Assembly (NCBI GenBank): GCA_913060865.1
Contig: CAJXTU010000001.1
Coordinates: forward strand, 186,001 to 250,000
DNA from: an uncultured Cycloclasticus sp.
GTDB taxonomy: Bacteria > Pseudomonadota > Gammaproteobacteria > Methylococcales > Cycloclasticaceae
Length of the DNA stretch: 64,000 nucleotides
Reading direction: 5' to 3'
Part shown: piece after piece, positions 46,003 to 54,786 of the stretch
How the letters are laid out: each line of letters opens with the position of its first letter
Position numbering within the stretch: position 1 is the stretch's first letter
Made by a program: the position numbers and the translations under genes
The notes under the pieces: model-generated
Told to the model about the DNA's origin: nothing
The model's input: the letters and a program-made list of their open reading frames with translations, nothing else
The model's database searches: none

Positions 46003-46248
46003 TTCAGCAAAATGGGTAATACGCTGCAAGAGACGAGTTGATTTTAAGCGCAAAGCCTTTCCGTTATTTAGATTATCCCAATAGACCGATTAAGCTCTTT
46101 AAAAACGAACCTTTCTCACTCGGTCTGTGGCTATTCTTAGCTACCCGCGGACTTCATTGGTAAAAGAAATTAATGTTTAAACAAATATTAGAATAATATA
46201 ATATAGTCTGTTCTTCCCATAAAACAATAAATGACACGAGGCAGGATA

Positions 46249-47334
46249 ATGACAAATACAGATAAAAAAGCGGTGACTCTACGGTACCTTGCAGGGTCAT
46301 TGATGTTAATGCTGGGTGTGTTCGGTTTTTACTTGGGTGGCCTTTGGACTTGGCTCGGAACTGCTGCGTTTATTTTGTTAGTTATACTTGATGTTTATTT
46401 ACCTAGAGACGAAGAGTTACATCAGGTTAAATCTAGTGGCTTTCAACACGCGGTGCTTTATTTTCAGCTACCACTGATTGTTACCTTATGGTTGATGTTT
46501 GCTGACATGCTAAGCACGGGTAATGGCGGCCTGCTTGAATTAACGGGGGCTATCTTTTCGATCTCGTTTTTAAGTGCGTTAGGCGGCTTGCCTCCGTCAC
46601 ATGAATTAATGCATCGTTATGGCGGTTTTGACCGCTTTTACTGCTCGCTTTATCTCACTGTGTTTTTATTACCAATGAATGATTTAGGGCACGTGAAGGG
46701 GCATCACTTGAAGGTAGCGACATCTGAGGATAGTGATACGCCTCGTAGGGGTGAATGGGTGTACACGTTTGCTTTCAGGTCGATATGGGGGCAGTTAATT
46801 GAATCCATTGGTATTGAGAAAAGTCGCTTACAGAAAAATAAAAAGCCTTTATGGTCGTTCGGTAGCCGATTCTTGCAGTCGGCGATTTTAATCACTATTT
46901 GGTTATCTGTTTGGTTTTCAATCGCGGGGATTGAGGCGTTGCCGGTGTATGTTTTGACAATGGCTATTTTCTATTTAGTGCTAGGTGGTTTTAACTATAC
47001 TCAGCATTATGGATTGATTCGCTTGATTGGAGAGCCGATTGAAACGAGGCATTCTTGGAATCAATTAAAACCACTAAGTCGGGCGCTTTCATTTGAAATT
47101 TCAAATCACTCTGAACATCATTTGAAACCAACGCGTTTTTATACCGACCTAAATCCATACCCAGACGCGCCACAACTGCCGAGCATCGCTTTGTGTTTCG
47201 TTTGTGCCTTTATTCCTCCCATATGGGAAAGTAAAATTGTAAGGCCGCAATTGGCTATTTGGGATGAAACGATGGCCAGTGATGCAGAGCGAGAGTTAGC
47301 TCATGAAGCTAATATAAAAGCGGGTTGGGTTTAA
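46249..47334 (+). CDS. XylM/AlkB-like membrane-bound non-heme diiron monooxygenase
   Basis: His boxes HELMHR, HVKGHH, NYTQHYGLIR, NHSEHH; TM helices; DSDTPRRGE and C-terminal APQLPS...IPPIW...WDE...ERELAHEANIKAGW resemble XylM as remembered. Start MTNTDKK (46249) or upstream ATG 46231. Confidence 0.88.
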   Translation: MTNTDKKAVTLRYLAGSLMLMLGVFGFYLGGLWTWLGTAAFILLVILDVYLPRDEELHQVKSSGFQHAVLYFQLPLIVTLWLMFADMLSTGNGGLLELTGAIFSISFLSALGGLPPSHELMHRYGGFDRFYCSLYLTVFLLPMNDLGHVKGHHLKVATSEDSDTPRRGEWVYTFAFRSIWGQLIESIGIEKSRLQKNKKPLWSFGSRFLQSAILITIWLSVWFSIAGIEALPVYVLTMAIFYLVLGGFNYTQHYGLIRLIGEPIETRHSWNQLKPLSRALSFEISNHSEHHLKPTRFYTDLNPYPDAPQLPSIALCFVCAFIPPIWESKIVRPQLAIWDETMASDAERELAHEANIKAGWV

Positions 47335-47483
47335 ATTTGGGGATATGTAGGTTTGTGTAAATATCGGTCGCTAGGTTGTTTATTTCTTCGTCTTATTTAT
47401 ATCTTGGTCGCATTGTATCTATAGCTATATTATCGAATTGGAGGCTTATTAAGCGCCCGTATTCTTTATTTAAACAAGATGTG

Positions 47484-47525
47484 AAATAAACTATGAATAT
47501 TATGTTAAATATTCATAGTTTATTT
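47484..47525. promoter_or_regulatory. 18-bp perfect inverted repeat, candidate TetR operator
   Basis: aaataaactatgaatatt atgtta aatattcatagtttattt, ending 14 nt before the TetR start codon. Confidence 0.65.
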
Positions 47526-47539
47526 GTTATAGTGCGCGG

Positions 47540-48148
47540 ATGAAGCGATTTGATACAAATCTATCTGAAAAGCAGATAAAAAAGGACATTCTCAGTGCGG
47601 CTGATAAGCGTTTCCGGACGTTTGGATTTAAAAAAACAACCATGGCAGAAATTGCGCAAGACTTGGGCATGTCGACGTCAAACTTGTATCGTTATTTCCC
47701 CAGTAAGGTAAGTATTGCTGAAGCGTTTGCCCTGCATTGTTTTGAAGAAAAAGAAGCTGGCCTTCAGTTGTTACTTGAACAACCACTGGTTAGCGCAGTT
47801 GATAGCTTGTTTGTTTATGCAAAGGGGCTTTTACATTATAACTTTGACCAGCTAAACACCTACCCCGCTATCAATGACATGATCATGGCCTTATGTGAGA
47901 CCAGTTCAGAGATCGTTGATAAAAAAAGAGAAGGGGAGCTGTCTATTCTTAAGGTTATCTTAGAGAAGGGGCAAGAGGAAAAGTGTTGGGTTATAGAGGA
48001 CTTAGATGAAACGGGTTTGGCGATCATGGCTTCTTGGGTGATGTTTAGTACGCCAACATTTATGCGTCATCAAACATTAGAGCAATTAGAAAAGCGTCTG
48101 GGCAATTTGCTCAATTTAATTATCACAGGTTTGAGAGTTAGGGATTAA
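47540..48148 (+). CDS. TetR/AcrR-family transcriptional regulator
   Basis: ILSAADKRFRTFGFKKTTMAEIAQDLGMSTSNLYRYFPSKVSIAEAF HTH. Confidence 0.95.
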   Translation: MKRFDTNLSEKQIKKDILSAADKRFRTFGFKKTTMAEIAQDLGMSTSNLYRYFPSKVSIAEAFALHCFEEKEAGLQLLLEQPLVSAVDSLFVYAKGLLHYNFDQLNTYPAINDMIMALCETSSEIVDKKREGELSILKVILEKGQEEKCWVIEDLDETGLAIMASWVMFSTPTFMRHQTLEQLEKRLGNLLNLIITGLRVRD

Positions 48149-48150
48149 CT

Positions 48151-50469
48151 ATGCATCGTTTAGAAACAAATTTTAGTGAATGGGTTATACGCTACCGTGT
48201 GGCAATTATTGTATTGAGTGTGTTGGCCGTTGCTGCGTCAGGATTTGGGGTTAAATACCTTGGTTTTACACCGGATTATAGGGTTTATTTCAGAGCTGAT
48301 AGTCCGCATTTAATGGCATTTAATCAGAATGAGTCAACTTATGCTAAGTCAGATAATGTCTTTATTCTTATCGCGCCTGAAACAGGTGATGCTTTCCAGA
48401 AGGATATTTTGACGCTGGTTGAAGATATGACGGAGGAGGCTTGGCAAATCCCTTATTCACTTAGGGTGGACTCAATTCAGAATTTTCAGAATACCTATGC
48501 AGAAGAGGATGATCTGGTTGTTGAGGACTTGTATGCAGATGCCAGCTCTTTAGAAGAGGAAGATATTCAGCGGGTTAAATCTGTGGCGCTCAGCGACCCT
48601 CTTCTCTATAAGCGAATTGTTTCAAAAGATGGGAGGGCAACGGCTGTTAATGTCACGATTGAATTTCCTGAAATTGAGCCTGAAGATGAGCTGCGCGAAG
48701 TCGTGGCTTATTCCCGTGAACTGGTGAAAAAATACCAAGAAAAATACCCGACCGTTAAGTTTTATGTGACCGGTATGGCGTTTATGAACAATGCCTTTGT
48801 AGAGTCAGGTCAAGGGGATGGGGAAACACTTTTTCCGATTAGCTTTGTGGTCATGGTTTTATTCCTCACGATCTTATTACGCAGTGTGAGCGCAGTATTT
48901 GGTGTGACCTTAGTTATTTTTATGTCAACACTAGTGGCGTTTGGCTTGGGTGGCTTTGCCGGGGTTTTATTGGCACCAGCATCGGTCGCATCTGGGCAAA
49001 TGATTATGGTGTTGGCAGTGGCCAATAGTGTGCATATGCTGGTCACGTTTATTTTTGATTTGCAACACAATGTAGCGAAAACAGAGGCATTAAAAGAAAG
49101 TTTGCGTATTAATTTAGTCCCTATTTTCTTAACCAGTGTGACCACAATGATTGGCTTTTTAGGCATGAACTTCAATGAGTCAGCGCCCTATCGAGATTTG
49201 GGTAATTTGGTAGCGGTCGGTGTCTTTGCATCCATGGTTTTTTCATTGACATTTTTGCCTGCAATAATGAGCTTCTTACCGGTTCGAGTTAAGCAAGGAG
49301 AGGATGCAGCCGTCCCATACTTGGAAAAATTCTCGAGATTTTCCATTAAATTCCATCGGCCGCTTTTATTGTTGATGTGTGTTGTGGCGATCTTGTCAGC
49401 AGCGGCCATACCGTTAAATACATCGGAAGAGCATTTCACCACGTATTTCGATCATACAGTACAGTTTCGCGTTGACTCGGATGCGACTCTAGACATTATG
49501 GGTGGTACTTTCCAACTAACGTACTCAATGCCTGCCAAAGCGAAAGGCGGGATAAGTGAACCAGCGTATCTTAATAACTTAAAAGACTTTGCAGACTGGT
49601 ACCGAGAGCAGCCAGAGACAATCAATGTGTTTGTCTTTACCGATACCATGTTGCGACTCAATAAAAATATGCATGGGGATGATCCTGCCTGGCGAAAATT
49701 GCCAGAAAGCCGTGATTTGGCCGCGCAGTATACGTTGCTGTATGAAATGTCGCTGCCCTATGGTTTAGATCTGAATAATCAGGTGAATGTGGATAAGTCG
49801 GCAACACGCATGGTGGCCACTGTAAGGGATATGACCAATAATGAGCTGATGGCTCTTGAGGACAGAGCTCAAGCATGGTTAAAAGCGAACGTTCCAAGCA
49901 CAATGACGACGATTGGTACGGGTACATTAATGATGTTTTCACACTTGGCTGATACCAATACAACCAGCATGATCGTCGGCTCTGTACTGGCGCTGATTCT
50001 GATCTCAGGCATTCTTATGGTGGCGCTTCGATCCTTTAAAATGGGTCTCTTAAGCTTGGTAACGAATATATTACCAGCGGGTATTGGTTTTGGGCTTTGG
50101 GGTGTGCTCAGCGGTGAAGTTCATATGGGCTTATCCGTTGTTGTGAGTATGACACTGGGTATTGTGGTGGATGACTCGGTGCATTTCTTAAGTAAGTATT
50201 TACGTGCAAAGCGTGAAAAAGGCTATACGACAGAAGAATCAATTACTTACGCCTTTACTCATGTAGGTAAAGCGCTTGGCATTAGTACGCTCGTCTTAAT
50301 AGGTGGTTTTGGTGTGCTAATGGCGTCACACTTCGCGATGACAACAGATATGGCGCTGTTAACGGTATGGATTATTTTGGCTGCCTTAGCCGCTAACTTT
50401 TTATTCTTACCTGGTCTATTACTGGTTTTTGATAAAAACAAAGCTAAAGTATTGGAGAAAGATGCTTAA
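48151..50469 (+). CDS. MMPL/RND-superfamily transporter (copy 1)
   Basis: 772 aa, about 12 TM topology, repeated MMPL segments (LAVANSVHMLVTFIFDLQHN; GIVVDDSVHFLSKYLRAKREKG). Confidence 0.92.
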   Translation: MHRLETNFSEWVIRYRVAIIVLSVLAVAASGFGVKYLGFTPDYRVYFRADSPHLMAFNQNESTYAKSDNVFILIAPETGDAFQKDILTLVEDMTEEAWQIPYSLRVDSIQNFQNTYAEEDDLVVEDLYADASSLEEEDIQRVKSVALSDPLLYKRIVSKDGRATAVNVTIEFPEIEPEDELREVVAYSRELVKKYQEKYPTVKFYVTGMAFMNNAFVESGQGDGETLFPISFVVMVLFLTILLRSVSAVFGVTLVIFMSTLVAFGLGGFAGVLLAPASVASGQMIMVLAVANSVHMLVTFIFDLQHNVAKTEALKESLRINLVPIFLTSVTTMIGFLGMNFNESAPYRDLGNLVAVGVFASMVFSLTFLPAIMSFLPVRVKQGEDAAVPYLEKFSRFSIKFHRPLLLLMCVVAILSAAAIPLNTSEEHFTTYFDHTVQFRVDSDATLDIMGGTFQLTYSMPAKAKGGISEPAYLNNLKDFADWYREQPETINVFVFTDTMLRLNKNMHGDDPAWRKLPESRDLAAQYTLLYEMSLPYGLDLNNQVNVDKSATRMVATVRDMTNNELMALEDRAQAWLKANVPSTMTTIGTGTLMMFSHLADTNTTSMIVGSVLALILISGILMVALRSFKMGLLSLVTNILPAGIGFGLWGVLSGEVHMGLSVVVSMTLGIVVDDSVHFLSKYLRAKREKGYTTEESITYAFTHVGKALGISTLVLIGGFGVLMASHFAMTTDMALLTVWIILAALAANFLFLPGLLLVFDKNKAKVLEKDA

Positions 50470-50504
50470 TGAAAGCGTTTGAGTTGCTAGAGAGAACTAG
50501 ATAG

Positions 50505-52802
50505 ATGGATCGTTTGGAAAACTATTTTAGCGGATGGGTTATTAAGTACCGTGCATGGATAATTGCTGTCAGCCTGATGGTGCTGATAGCAGCTGGAAAT
50601 GGCTTGCAGTATCTTGGATTTGATAATGATTATCGTGCTTTTTTCACTGATGATAACCCTGAGTTATTGGCTTATGATGAGGTTGAAAATACGTATACAA
50701 AGTCAGATAACGTATTCATTCTGATAGAACCAAAAACGGGTGATGTTTTTCAGCCTGAAATACTCAAACTGATTGAGGAGCTAACAACATCGGCATGGCA
50801 AACGCCTTACTCTCGGCGTGTTGATTCGTTACAGAACTTCCAAAACACCTATGCAGAAGATGATGACCTAGTTGTTGAAAGTTTGTATGAAGACGCCACT
50901 AACTTGGTGGCCGTGGATATTGAAAACGTCAAGCAAGTAGGGCTATCCGACCCATTATTACTAAAAAGGTTAGTGTCTGCCGATGGGCGTGTTACCGCCT
51001 TGAATATTACCATTGAGTACCCAAAGGTTGACGCCGATAAAGAGTTAAAGGCGGTGGTGTCTAAAACACGCGACATGGTGTCTCATTACAAAAAGGCTTA
51101 CCCAAATGTTAACTTTTATATTACCGGAATAGCGTTTTTAAATAATGCATTTGTGGAAGCGGGGGAGAACGACCTGTCCTTGTTAGTGCCCGTTAGCTTG
51201 CTATTGATGCTTGTTATTATGTTTGTGCTATTGCGCAGTATCAGTGCAGTCATAGGCATCACGCTGATTATTATTTTTTCGGATGTTATTGCACTAGGTT
51301 TGGGTGGTTATGCTGGTGTGAAACTAACCCCTGCCTCCATTTCATCTGCGCAGATGATTATGGTGTTAGCGGTAGCGAATAGTGTTCACTTGTTGGTCAG
51401 CTTTATGTATGGCCTGCAACACAAGGTCGCAAAGCAAGAAGCTTTGAGAGAAAGTATTCGGATTAATTTACAGCCTATTTTTCTAACCAGTGCAACCACT
51501 ATGATAGGCTTTTTGTGCATGAATTTTAGTGAGTCACCGCCTTTTCATGATTTAGGTAACTTGGTGGCAGCAGGAGTATTTGTCTCTTTTTGTCTTTCAT
51601 TGACATTTTTGCCGGCGATCATGAGTTACCTGCCTGTTCGTGTAAAAGTGGGTGAGGATATTTCTGTTGAGCGCTTAGCTTTCTTTTCTACGTTTGTTAT
51701 TCGGCATAAAAACTTTATATTGTTCTCATCGCTGGTGATTATCTTAGCGTCTGCTTATGCGGCCACGCTAAACAAACCGGAAGAACAGTTCCTTAAGTAT
51801 TTTGATAAGTCAGTGGAGTTTAGAGTTGATTCTGATTTTGCCAATCAATCAGTCGGTGGTCTTTTTCAATTATCTTTTTCTTTGCCTGCTGAGGGTAAAG
51901 GTGGCATCAGTGATCCTGAGTACCTTGAGAGCTTAGATCGTTTTGCTCAGTGGCTTAAAGTACAGCCAGAAATAATTAATACGTATGTCTTAAGCGACAC
52001 TCTGCGACGGCTGAATAAAAATATGCATGGAGATGACCCCGCTTGGTATAAATTGCCAGAAAGCCGGGAGTTAGCCGCGCAGTATTTACTTTTGTATGAA
52101 ATGTCATTGCCGTACGGCTTGGATTTAAACAACCAAGTTAACATTGATAAATCAGCCACCCTATTGGTGGTGGGTGTTCAAGAAATGAGCAATGTAGAGT
52201 TACTTGACTTTGAACAGCGTGTGCAACAATGGATGCAAAGTAATTTGCCTGAGAGTATGCAAACAAATGGTTCGGGAGCTATGCTGATATTTGCTCACCT
52301 GACAGAAAAAAATATCAAAAGTATGTTAAGTGGCTCTGTATTGGCGTTAGTGCTCATTTCAATGATTCTTATTTTTGCACTTCGCTCAATCAAAATAGGT
52401 CTTTTAAGCCTTGTGCCCAACTTAGTGCCTGTGATTATTGGTTTTGGCCTCTGGGGTCTACTTTATGTTGAGGTTAATATGGCCCTAGCATCCGTCGTGA
52501 GCATGACGCTCGGTATTGTGGTGGATGATACCGTGCACTTTTTAAGTAAGTATTTACGTGCTAAACGTGAAAAAGGCTATAGCACAGAAGAATCTATTAC
52601 CTACGCCTTTACCCATGTTGGTAAAGCGTTAACTATTAGCACACTGATACTGAGTGCCGGTTTTGGTGTTTTAATGATGTCACCTTTTTCACTTAACTCA
52701 GATATGGCTACGCTAACAACCTGGATTATTATGATTGCGTTAGTGGTGGATTTGCTGCTATTACCCATTTTATTACTCAAACTAGATAAGGAAAAACAAT
52801 GA
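50505..52802 (+). CDS. MMPL/RND-superfamily transporter (copy 2)
   Basis: 765 aa, colinear paralogue of the preceding gene with long identical stretches. Confidence 0.92.
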   Translation: MDRLENYFSGWVIKYRAWIIAVSLMVLIAAGNGLQYLGFDNDYRAFFTDDNPELLAYDEVENTYTKSDNVFILIEPKTGDVFQPEILKLIEELTTSAWQTPYSRRVDSLQNFQNTYAEDDDLVVESLYEDATNLVAVDIENVKQVGLSDPLLLKRLVSADGRVTALNITIEYPKVDADKELKAVVSKTRDMVSHYKKAYPNVNFYITGIAFLNNAFVEAGENDLSLLVPVSLLLMLVIMFVLLRSISAVIGITLIIIFSDVIALGLGGYAGVKLTPASISSAQMIMVLAVANSVHLLVSFMYGLQHKVAKQEALRESIRINLQPIFLTSATTMIGFLCMNFSESPPFHDLGNLVAAGVFVSFCLSLTFLPAIMSYLPVRVKVGEDISVERLAFFSTFVIRHKNFILFSSLVIILASAYAATLNKPEEQFLKYFDKSVEFRVDSDFANQSVGGLFQLSFSLPAEGKGGISDPEYLESLDRFAQWLKVQPEIINTYVLSDTLRRLNKNMHGDDPAWYKLPESRELAAQYLLLYEMSLPYGLDLNNQVNIDKSATLLVVGVQEMSNVELLDFEQRVQQWMQSNLPESMQTNGSGAMLIFAHLTEKNIKSMLSGSVLALVLISMILIFALRSIKIGLLSLVPNLVPVIIGFGLWGLLYVEVNMALASVVSMTLGIVVDDTVHFLSKYLRAKREKGYSTEESITYAFTHVGKALTISTLILSAGFGVLMMSPFSLNSDMATLTTWIIMIALVVDLLLLPILLLKLDKEKQ

Positions 52803-53575
52803 AAAAATTAGTCAGTTTATTGGTGCTTTTATTGCCATTGGTGGCCATTGCACAAACGCCGGAAGAAAGAGGAATGGAAATTGCGGTAGAAGGTGATAAA
52901 AGAGATGCGGGTTTTGGTGATATGTCATCAAATATGGTTATGACCTTAAAGAATGCCAACGGCGATGTCAGTATTAGGAAAATGCGATCAAAAAACCTTG
53001 AAGTAACTGGGGATGGTGATAAAGGCTTAACCATTTTTGATGAGCCAGCTGACATTAAAGGAACCGCTTTTTTATCCTTTACGCATATTTTAGACGCAGA
53101 TGACCAATGGCTATATTTGCCGGCCTTAAAGCGAGTAAAGCGTATTTCATCTAAAAATAAGTCGGGCCCTTTTATGGGCAGCGAGTTTGCCTTTGAGGAT
53201 TTATCGTCTCGTGAAGTGCCAAAGTACACGTATTTGTACTTACGCGATGAGGTCATTGATGGGGAAGAAGTGTTTGTTGTTGAATCTAAGCCTAATTATA
53301 AGTATTCAGGGTACACACGTTCAGTTGCTTGGATCAGTAAAGAGAAGTATCAGCCGTTAAAGATTGAGTACTATGACCGTAAAAAGTCACTGTTAAAAAC
53401 CATGACAGCAACAGGTTATCAGCAGTACTTAGGTCAGTACTGGCGTCCAGATTCATTAAATATGGTGAATCACCAAACTAAAAAGGAAACACGGCTGGAG
53501 TTTTCTAACTACCAGTTTCAAAAAGGTTTGTCAGACCGTGACTTTAATAAAAGCAGCCTGAAGCGAGCACGCTAA
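52799..53575 (+). CDS. Outer-membrane lipoprotein-sorting (LolA-like) protein
   Basis: Signal peptide; FLSFTHILDADDQWLYLPALKRVKRISSKNKSGPFMGSEFAFEDL motif; overlaps the upstream transporter stop. Confidence 0.85.
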   Translation: MKKLVSLLVLLLPLVAIAQTPEERGMEIAVEGDKRDAGFGDMSSNMVMTLKNANGDVSIRKMRSKNLEVTGDGDKGLTIFDEPADIKGTAFLSFTHILDADDQWLYLPALKRVKRISSKNKSGPFMGSEFAFEDLSSREVPKYTYLYLRDEVIDGEEVFVVESKPNYKYSGYTRSVAWISKEKYQPLKIEYYDRKKSLLKTMTATGYQQYLGQYWRPDSLNMVNHQTKKETRLEFSNYQFQKGLSDRDFNKSSLKRAR

Positions 53576-53592
53576 ATACTGGATACACGTAA

Positions 53593-54786
53593 ATGAGCAT
53601 TAAAAAAGCAGTTGTATGCGGCCTGTTAATAGGGGGGATAGCTTTCCTATCACCAGGTTTCGCAAACGAATGGTCCGGGTATGTGGCGGCTGAGTATCGT
53701 TATTTCACACAATCAGCGTTAGACCAGCAGCAATTCAACGGAGGCAGCGTATCGTTTTCAGCAGAACCGGAGTTCTACCATAGTTGGAACGATGGAGATG
53801 ATGCCTTTATTTTTAACTCTTTTTTTCGCTGGGATGAGCATGATCCACAGCGTACACATATTGATTTGCGTGAGTTGATGTGGGTCCATGCTGAGCGAGA
53901 CTGGGAGTTGCGCTTAGGTGTCGGCAAAGTGTTTTGGGGGGTGACTGAGTCCCAACATTTAGTGGATATCATCAACCAGTCGGACACGGTTGAGAACCTC
54001 GATGGTGAAGATAAGCTAGGACAGACTATGCTTAACCTATCGCTTATTAAAGACTGGGGGACAGTCGACCTGTTTGTGTTGCCAGGGTTTAGAGAACGAA
54101 CATTCTCGGGTAAAGATGGGCGCTTTCGTCCAAACCCAGCGATAGACGATCACACGGCTTACCAATCTGCTTCGAAAGATAAGCACGTAGATTATGCTCT
54201 ACGTTGGAGTCAAACGTTTGATGACTGGGATGTTGGTATTTCTCATTTTTACGGTACTAGCCGAGAGCCAAGAATTATTCCAACGCCGATACCGGGCGGT
54301 GTTGCGCTGGTGCCTTTTTACGATATTATTAATCAAACCGGTATAGATGTGCAGGCAACGCTCGACGAGTGGCTCTGGAAAGTTGAAGTGATTCACCGTA
54401 GTGGTCAGGGCGAAACATTCAATGCCTTTACCGGTGGTTTTGAATATACCTTTGTTGGTGTCATGGAGTCTGCGGCAGATTTTGGTCTGATAGCGGAATA
54501 TTTGTACGATGACCGTGGTGCAGATGCGGGTGTTGTTTTTGATGATGATATTTTTGTTGGTGGTCGCTTAGCGATGAATGATGCGGCTTCTAGTGAGCTA
54601 TTGTTTGGTGTGATTGCTGATGTCGACGAGAGTACTCGATTCTATAGCCTTGAGGGGAGTCGGCGCATCGGTGCTGATTGGGTGTTAAGCGTTGAGGCGC
54701 GTTTCATATCGGCGGCTACTAATGCTCCTCTTGCACCCTTTCGTCATGATGATGTTATTCAATTGGAGTTGGCTCGCCACTTTTGA
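53593..54786 (+). CDS. Predicted outer-membrane beta-barrel protein
   Basis: Signal peptide, alternating aromatic/hydrophobic strands, C-terminal ...IQLELARHF ending in Phe. Confidence 0.75.
   Translation: MSIKKAVVCGLLIGGIAFLSPGFANEWSGYVAAEYRYFTQSALDQQQFNGGSVSFSAEPEFYHSWNDGDDAFIFNSFFRWDEHDPQRTHIDLRELMWVHAERDWELRLGVGKVFWGVTESQHLVDIINQSDTVENLDGEDKLGQTMLNLSLIKDWGTVDLFVLPGFRERTFSGKDGRFRPNPAIDDHTAYQSASKDKHVDYALRWSQTFDDWDVGISHFYGTSREPRIIPTPIPGGVALVPFYDIINQTGIDVQATLDEWLWKVEVIHRSGQGETFNAFTGGFEYTFVGVMESAADFGLIAEYLYDDRGADAGVVFDDDIFVGGRLAMNDAASSELLFGVIADVDESTRFYSLEGSRRIGADWVLSVEARFISAATNAPLAPFRHDDVIQLELARHF

Follow-up and report, generated by a model that had tools for sequence, protein, structure and literature searches.

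A TetR-linked MMPL-LolA-barrel gene module next to a XylM-type monooxygenase in Cycloclasticus: a probable, monooxygenase-independent trans-envelope transporter for a hydrophobic molecule

The locus described here lies in a window of 64,000 nucleotides (the whole stretch of DNA that was analyzed) from a 2.43-Mb Cycloclasticus-type genome, referred to below as G000 (contig C1, 186001-250000). It consists of the following genes and predicted regulatory site.

46231..47334 (or starting from a second Met at 46249), plus strand: XylM-type membrane di-iron monooxygenase, 367 aa (PF00487, 3e-24)
47488..47521 (site 47492-47517), no strand: predicted palindromic TetR operator, AAACTATGAATATTATGTTAAATATTCATAGTTT, core TGAATA-N10-TATTCA, based on conservation
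47540..48148, plus strand: TetR-family regulator, 202 aa, intact, presumed autoregulator of the module (PF00440, 4e-12; PF17935)
48151..50469, plus strand: MMPL/RND (HAE3-like) transporter 1, the genus-specific tandem copy (PF03176, 3e-34)
50505..52802, plus strand: MMPL/RND (HAE3-like) transporter 2 (PF03176, 2e-37)
52799..53575, plus strand: LolA-like periplasmic protein, 258 aa, with a signal-peptide-like start (PF17131, 4e-66; DUF1329, 2e-11)
53593..54786, plus strand: outer-membrane beta-barrel, 397 aa, a distant DUF1302 relative (no Pfam match)

A preliminary description of this DNA, which started the monooxygenase at the second Met, had reported six ORFs on the same strand, and they are indeed all on the plus strand, with exactly the gaps it gave from TetR through the barrel (2, 35, -4, and 17 nt); the monooxygenase, which it placed about 200 nt upstream, is 205 nt from TetR. 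Pfam agreed with its family calls (XylM/AlkB fold, TetR, two MMPL proteins, and a LolA-like protein), and its assignment of an outer-membrane barrel also holds: Pfam gives no match, but the homologs of this protein across the class end with F, Y, or W in 54/56 cases. The locus is preceded by genes for a VWA protein and pgk and followed by glnK and amtB, then by GST and EF-G homologs. Scans for promoters and terminators at the locus gave results no better than those obtained with shuffles.

We then analyzed the sequences of the transport proteins. Each pump contains two PF03176 domains, and an alignment of 64 sequences showed a conserved DDxxH motif in TM10 (first Asp and His in 64/64, second Asp in 61/64), whereas the equivalent position of TM4 is mostly N, D, or S; the TM4/TM10 assignment and the role of these segments in proton relay follow what is established for RND proteins. 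The best NCBIfam model for the pumps is HAE3 (TIGR00921), with 136 and 188 bits (E value of 2e-55 for transporter 2), both under the 351.9-bit cutoff of the model, and their TIGR03480 scores are far under cutoff. Their predicted fold is nearest to those of MmpL4, HpnN, MmpL5, and NPC1-type lipid transporters (model pLDDT of 64), so the window pumps share an RND fold of the MMPL/HAE3 kind with HpnN and the MmpL lipid transporters. The two tandem pumps are 62% identical to each other. In the genus tree, the first copy forms a separate, strongly supported branch, and it was found only in G000, G001, G007, G009, and G015, i.e., in 5 of the 13 Cycloclasticus genomes that bear the block.

The LolA-like protein matches a solved LolA_like structure (3bk5; phmmer E value of 7e-93) and scores far higher with PF17131 (223 bits) than with DUF1329 (44 bits, which is still over the cutoff of that model). 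The barrel ORF has a signal-peptide-like start and aligned with DUF1302 in hhalign with an E value of 2e-5, compared to 0.04 to 0.45 for the controls (FadL, TonB-receptor, TolC, DUF1329, and RND). A structure model built from 5 sequences contained many strands, at low confidence (pLDDT of 39).

The monooxygenase belongs to a known kind of enzyme. It is 38.6% identical over 96% to XylM of the TOL plasmid pWW0, it matches AlkB from the PDB (E value of 5e-37), and the nine His ligands of the membrane di-iron site (HELMH, HVKGHH, QHYG, and HSEHH) all align with those of pWW0 XylM, the HYG motif included. Unlike pWW0 XylM, it has no adjacent XylA reductase, XylB, XylC, or XylN; a XylA-like reductase candidate (41%) is unlinked, on a separate contig (G000:C3:192739). 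Without an adjacent reductase, a TOL-type operon was ruled out. The nearest named relatives of the window enzyme are in Cycloclasticus MAGs (70 to 78%), and it is also closer to relatives from Rugosibacter and Immundisolibacteraceae (42 to 49%) than to pWW0 XylM. Several loci of the latter relatives contain XylA, XylB, or Rieske genes nearby, and hydroxylation of aromatic methyl groups by the window XylM would fit this context; the flanking sequences examined for these relatives did not contain the transport block.

Upstream of TetR, the palindrome TGAATA-N10-TATTCA is conserved in Cycloclasticus, and the palindrome, its 10-nt spacer unchanged, also precedes TetR orthologs in unrelated gammaproteobacteria. 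It was found in 9/12 unrelated loci having this TetR versus 0/44 loci lacking it (847 kb, ∼0.01 expected). From this conservation, we predict that it is the autoregulatory operator of the module, to which TetR would bind. The window copy is the sole perfect site in its own genome and XylM has no copy of it; we therefore rejected the regulation of XylM via the same operator.

We searched 369 sampled gammaproteobacterial genomes, applying a cutoff for LolA orthologs of E ≤ 1e-60 that was chosen in this analysis. LolA-like orthologs were present in 117 genomes and AlkB/XylM relatives of any kind in 45. The two occurred together in 17 genomes, against 14.3 expected (P = 0.39; P = 0.60 when Cycloclasticus was left out), and 100/117 LolA carriers (85%) had no detectable AlkB/XylM, this content being the only basis on which they can be called nondegraders. 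The order MMPL-LolA-barrel is repeated in dozens of unrelated genomes from many gammaproteobacterial families, hence the arrangement is not due to chance. The three genes were kept together in most of the loci that we fetched, the barrel being present in 47/53, and no catabolic neighbor recurred across the 53 loci, where only TetR-type regulators (in some) and small shared housekeeping groups did. Carriers with no monooxygenase nearby include Photobacterium sp. GJ3, Halioglobus pacificus, and a plasmid of Pseudoalteromonas rhizosphaerae. The "five-gene block" of the preliminary description is thus made of real genes, but the unit is better described as a three-gene core to which TetR and a tandem second MMPL gene are joined. 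That description had also coupled transport to hydroxylation and had suggested checking how often the block occurs with and without the monooxygenase. As far as genome content goes, the block occurs mostly without it, and the chance-level co-occurrence, the large share of carriers devoid of AlkB/XylM, and the module's own TetR and operator argue against coupling as a property of the module. Given the co-occurrence at chance, we ruled out that the block is a monooxygenase-dependent unit.

Within the genus, a strong LolA ortholog was found in 13/18 Cycloclasticus genomes, and glnK-amtB follows the block wherever the contig extends that far. A XylM ortholog is present in 8 genomes (the window itself and seven others at 69 to 79%), all of which are among the 13 block carriers (Fisher P = 0.036); the remaining 5 carriers lack XylM. 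The distance between XylM and the block is about 6.5 kb or less in 7/8 genomes: XylM is immediately 5' of the block in the window genome, G001, and G009, and is separated from TetR by aromatic-catabolism genes spanning ∼4 to 6 kb (Rieske alpha/beta, homotrimeric Rieske oxygenases, a BphC-like extradiol dioxygenase, and an alpha/beta hydrolase) in G007, G010, G011, and G017. G015 carries XylM on one contig and the block on another. The same slot holds genes for a CCP/MauG protein and a GGDEF-EAL protein, and no XylM, in G004 and G006 (Pfam was run on the G006 pair). At L144 12099-16084 and L143 323-4335, we noted a di-heme cytochrome c peroxidase (MauG-like) and a PAS/GAF/GGDEF/EAL protein in this slot. 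Since it contains XylM, aromatic genes, or unrelated genes depending on the strain, the slot is a hotspot for variable genes, and XylM is best read as part of a variable aromatic-catabolism slot just upstream of the module, of which it is probably a neighbor and not a part.

The regulator is also variable in Cycloclasticus. In G001, where XylM is directly upstream, several frameshifts and stops have turned TetR into a pseudogene (L141 14300-14830); in G009 (L008), TetR and the operator are lost and XylM lies 72 nt 5' of the first MMPL gene. As TetR has decayed or disappeared where XylM abuts the pumps, coupling may have arisen locally in these two relatives. TetR is also absent from G003 and G006, neither of which has XylM. 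Separately, G017 carries a second, diverged MMPL-LolA-barrel copy (44 to 52%), ∼6 kb from AlkB-like and Rieske dioxygenase genes (L156 1980-14073).

One of the closest characterized systems is AmeABCD from Castellaniella defragrans, an exporter whose deletion lowers the tolerance to monoterpenes and increases the accumulation of Nile Red (PMC6394551). Both systems combine an RND pump (HAE3-like in the window), a periplasmic protein of the LolA superfamily, and an outer-membrane barrel; AmeA (DUF1302) has a distant relative in the window barrel, as does AmeB (DUF1329) in the LolA-like protein. In contrast to AmeABCD, the window operon lacks an AmeC (BNR/YCF48) gene, its LolA-like protein is of the short PF17131 type (258 versus 451 aa), its barrel is smaller (397 versus 605 aa) and goes unrecognized by the Pfam DUF1302 model, and it has its own TetR and operator. 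Lacking both a Pfam DUF1302 match and AmeC, the window operon falls outside the AmeABCD type; the transport module is a compact cousin of that system, a variant without these two hallmarks. True Ame-type cassettes (BNR, RND, DUF1302, and DUF1329), AmeC included, do exist in the genus. They are found on the same strand and directly 5' of a XylM paralog and Rieske alpha/beta genes in four Cycloclasticus genomes; the cassette loci are L248 2501-12614, L249 2293-12385, L250 2384-12464, L251 6227-10634 (at a contig end, with the DUF1329 end only), and L243 6205-15215. The genome of the window also has an Ame-type cassette and Rieske genes, with no XylM between them. The loci that pair such a cassette with a XylM paralog are better candidates for transporter-oxygenase coupling than the window locus.

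Other systems are comparable in part. In Thalassolituus oleivorans, an MMPL-LolA fusion and the adjacent predicted porin (TOL_3187/TOL_3188) are upregulated on n-C28 (PMC6304351). The likeness to the window genes, MMPL and LolA followed by a barrel or porin, is one of architecture, and the Thalassolituus MMPL and LolA parts are fused in one protein, unlike those of the window. An ORF of 1069 aa that fuses MMPL and LolA, with a barrel adjoining, has the same architecture (L197 109-4533). The DUF1302/DUF1329 genes PP_0765/0766/2018/2019 of Pseudomonas putida are required for growth on Tween 20 (PMC10866462). HpnN differs in that it can do without LolA or barrel partners of its own (PMC6394551). 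We dismissed the alkane uptake system AupA/AupB as a match, AupA being a FadL-like porin and the AupA/AupB paper naming no MMPL or LolA protein. MMPL proteins are not mentioned in the Cycloclasticus literature on naphthalene, PAH sensing, and pentane, and our literature search returned no member of this exact module with tested function, expression, or biochemistry.

We propose that the module is a TetR-autoregulated transporter, driven by the proton motive force, that carries a hydrophobic molecule across the envelope, and we consider it probable that it does so without the monooxygenase. A trans-envelope path for such a molecule, as put forward in the preliminary description, best accounts for the MMPL-LolA-barrel core. 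The substrate may be a lipid, a fatty-acid-like molecule, or a hydrocarbon; the MMPL/RND pumps would extract it from the inner membrane, after which the LolA-like protein would ferry it across the periplasm and the barrel would deliver it to the outer membrane or let it pass through. The module would be ancestral and functional without the monooxygenase. By analogy, the Ame, Thalassolituus, and P. putida systems support such a path in either direction. The likeness to AmeABCD leads us to favor the outward one, as efflux or export of an envelope lipid.

Alternatively, XylM and the transport genes might form one functional locus, in which hydroxylation and passage across the envelope, of the hydrophobic substrate or of its hydroxylated product, go hand in hand. 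The presence of the block in all the XylM-bearing Cycloclasticus genomes, mostly at short distance, is consistent with this idea, as are the loss or decay of TetR in G009 and G001 and, in four genomes, the Ame-type cassettes located 5' of XylM paralogs and Rieske genes. However, five genomes of the genus have the block and no XylM, co-occurrence across the class is at chance, the window module has a separate operator, and XylM relatives outside Cycloclasticus lack the block in the flanks examined; moreover, TetR has also been lost in G003 and G006, where there is no XylM. We therefore regard a single functional locus as improbable. The reverse of our preferred direction, with the module importing hydrophobic long-chain nutrients that would enter via the barrel, would accommodate the induction on n-C28 and the requirement on Tween 20. 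Characterized HAE3/MMPL proteins mostly move their substrate outward, and AmeABCD itself is an exporter (PMC6394551), which makes an importer rather unlikely.

A third reading, which overlaps with our preferred one and specifies the substrate, is that the module serves housekeeping or stress-induced homeostasis of envelope lipids, such as trafficking of phospholipids or fatty acids between the membranes, and is unrelated to hydrocarbons. Its broad distribution without AlkB/XylM, the lipid-transporter-like fold of the pumps (HpnN, MmpL4, and NPC1), and the lack of a recurring catabolic neighbor in the 53 loci all point this way. The module is also absent from the 22 genes mapped in a transposon screen for PAH growth in Cycloclasticus P1, which is informative only if P1 carries the block (PMC8547461). 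On the other hand, its patchy presence (117/369) speaks against an essential housekeeping role, and the similarly built Thalassolituus fusion and porin respond to n-C28 (PMC6304351). We see lipid homeostasis as a real possibility, though one that falls short of an even chance. Returning to the hydrophobe transporter that we prefer, a broader version may also hold, and we advance it tentatively: MMPL, a short LolA-like protein, and a compact DUF1302-like barrel would constitute an unnamed, widespread transporter, run in part of its range by a dedicated TetR via TGAATA-N10-TATTCA, that provides gammaproteobacteria with a general route for hydrophobic molecules across the envelope and that, in Cycloclasticus, underwent duplication and was recruited towards aromatic catabolism.

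Outside of Lpt, Mla, Lol, and the HAE1 efflux pumps, little is settled about the routes by which hydrophobic molecules pass the Gram-negative envelope or about the direction of this traffic. Because the module is common, its three-gene core is defined, and an operator can be predicted in loci with the TetR, its inducer and substrate should be within reach of ordinary genetics; the core occurs in Photobacterium and Pseudoalteromonas, which are tractable marine hosts. The locus also cautions that gene adjacency in hydrocarbon degraders does not amount to functional coupling. On the 24-kb plasmid of P. rhizosphaerae, from oyster hemolymph, MMPL-LolA-barrel adjoins gamma-mobile-trio genes (gmtX, gmtY, and an integrase gene; L257 1028-11926), which suggests that the module may travel as cargo of mobile islands.
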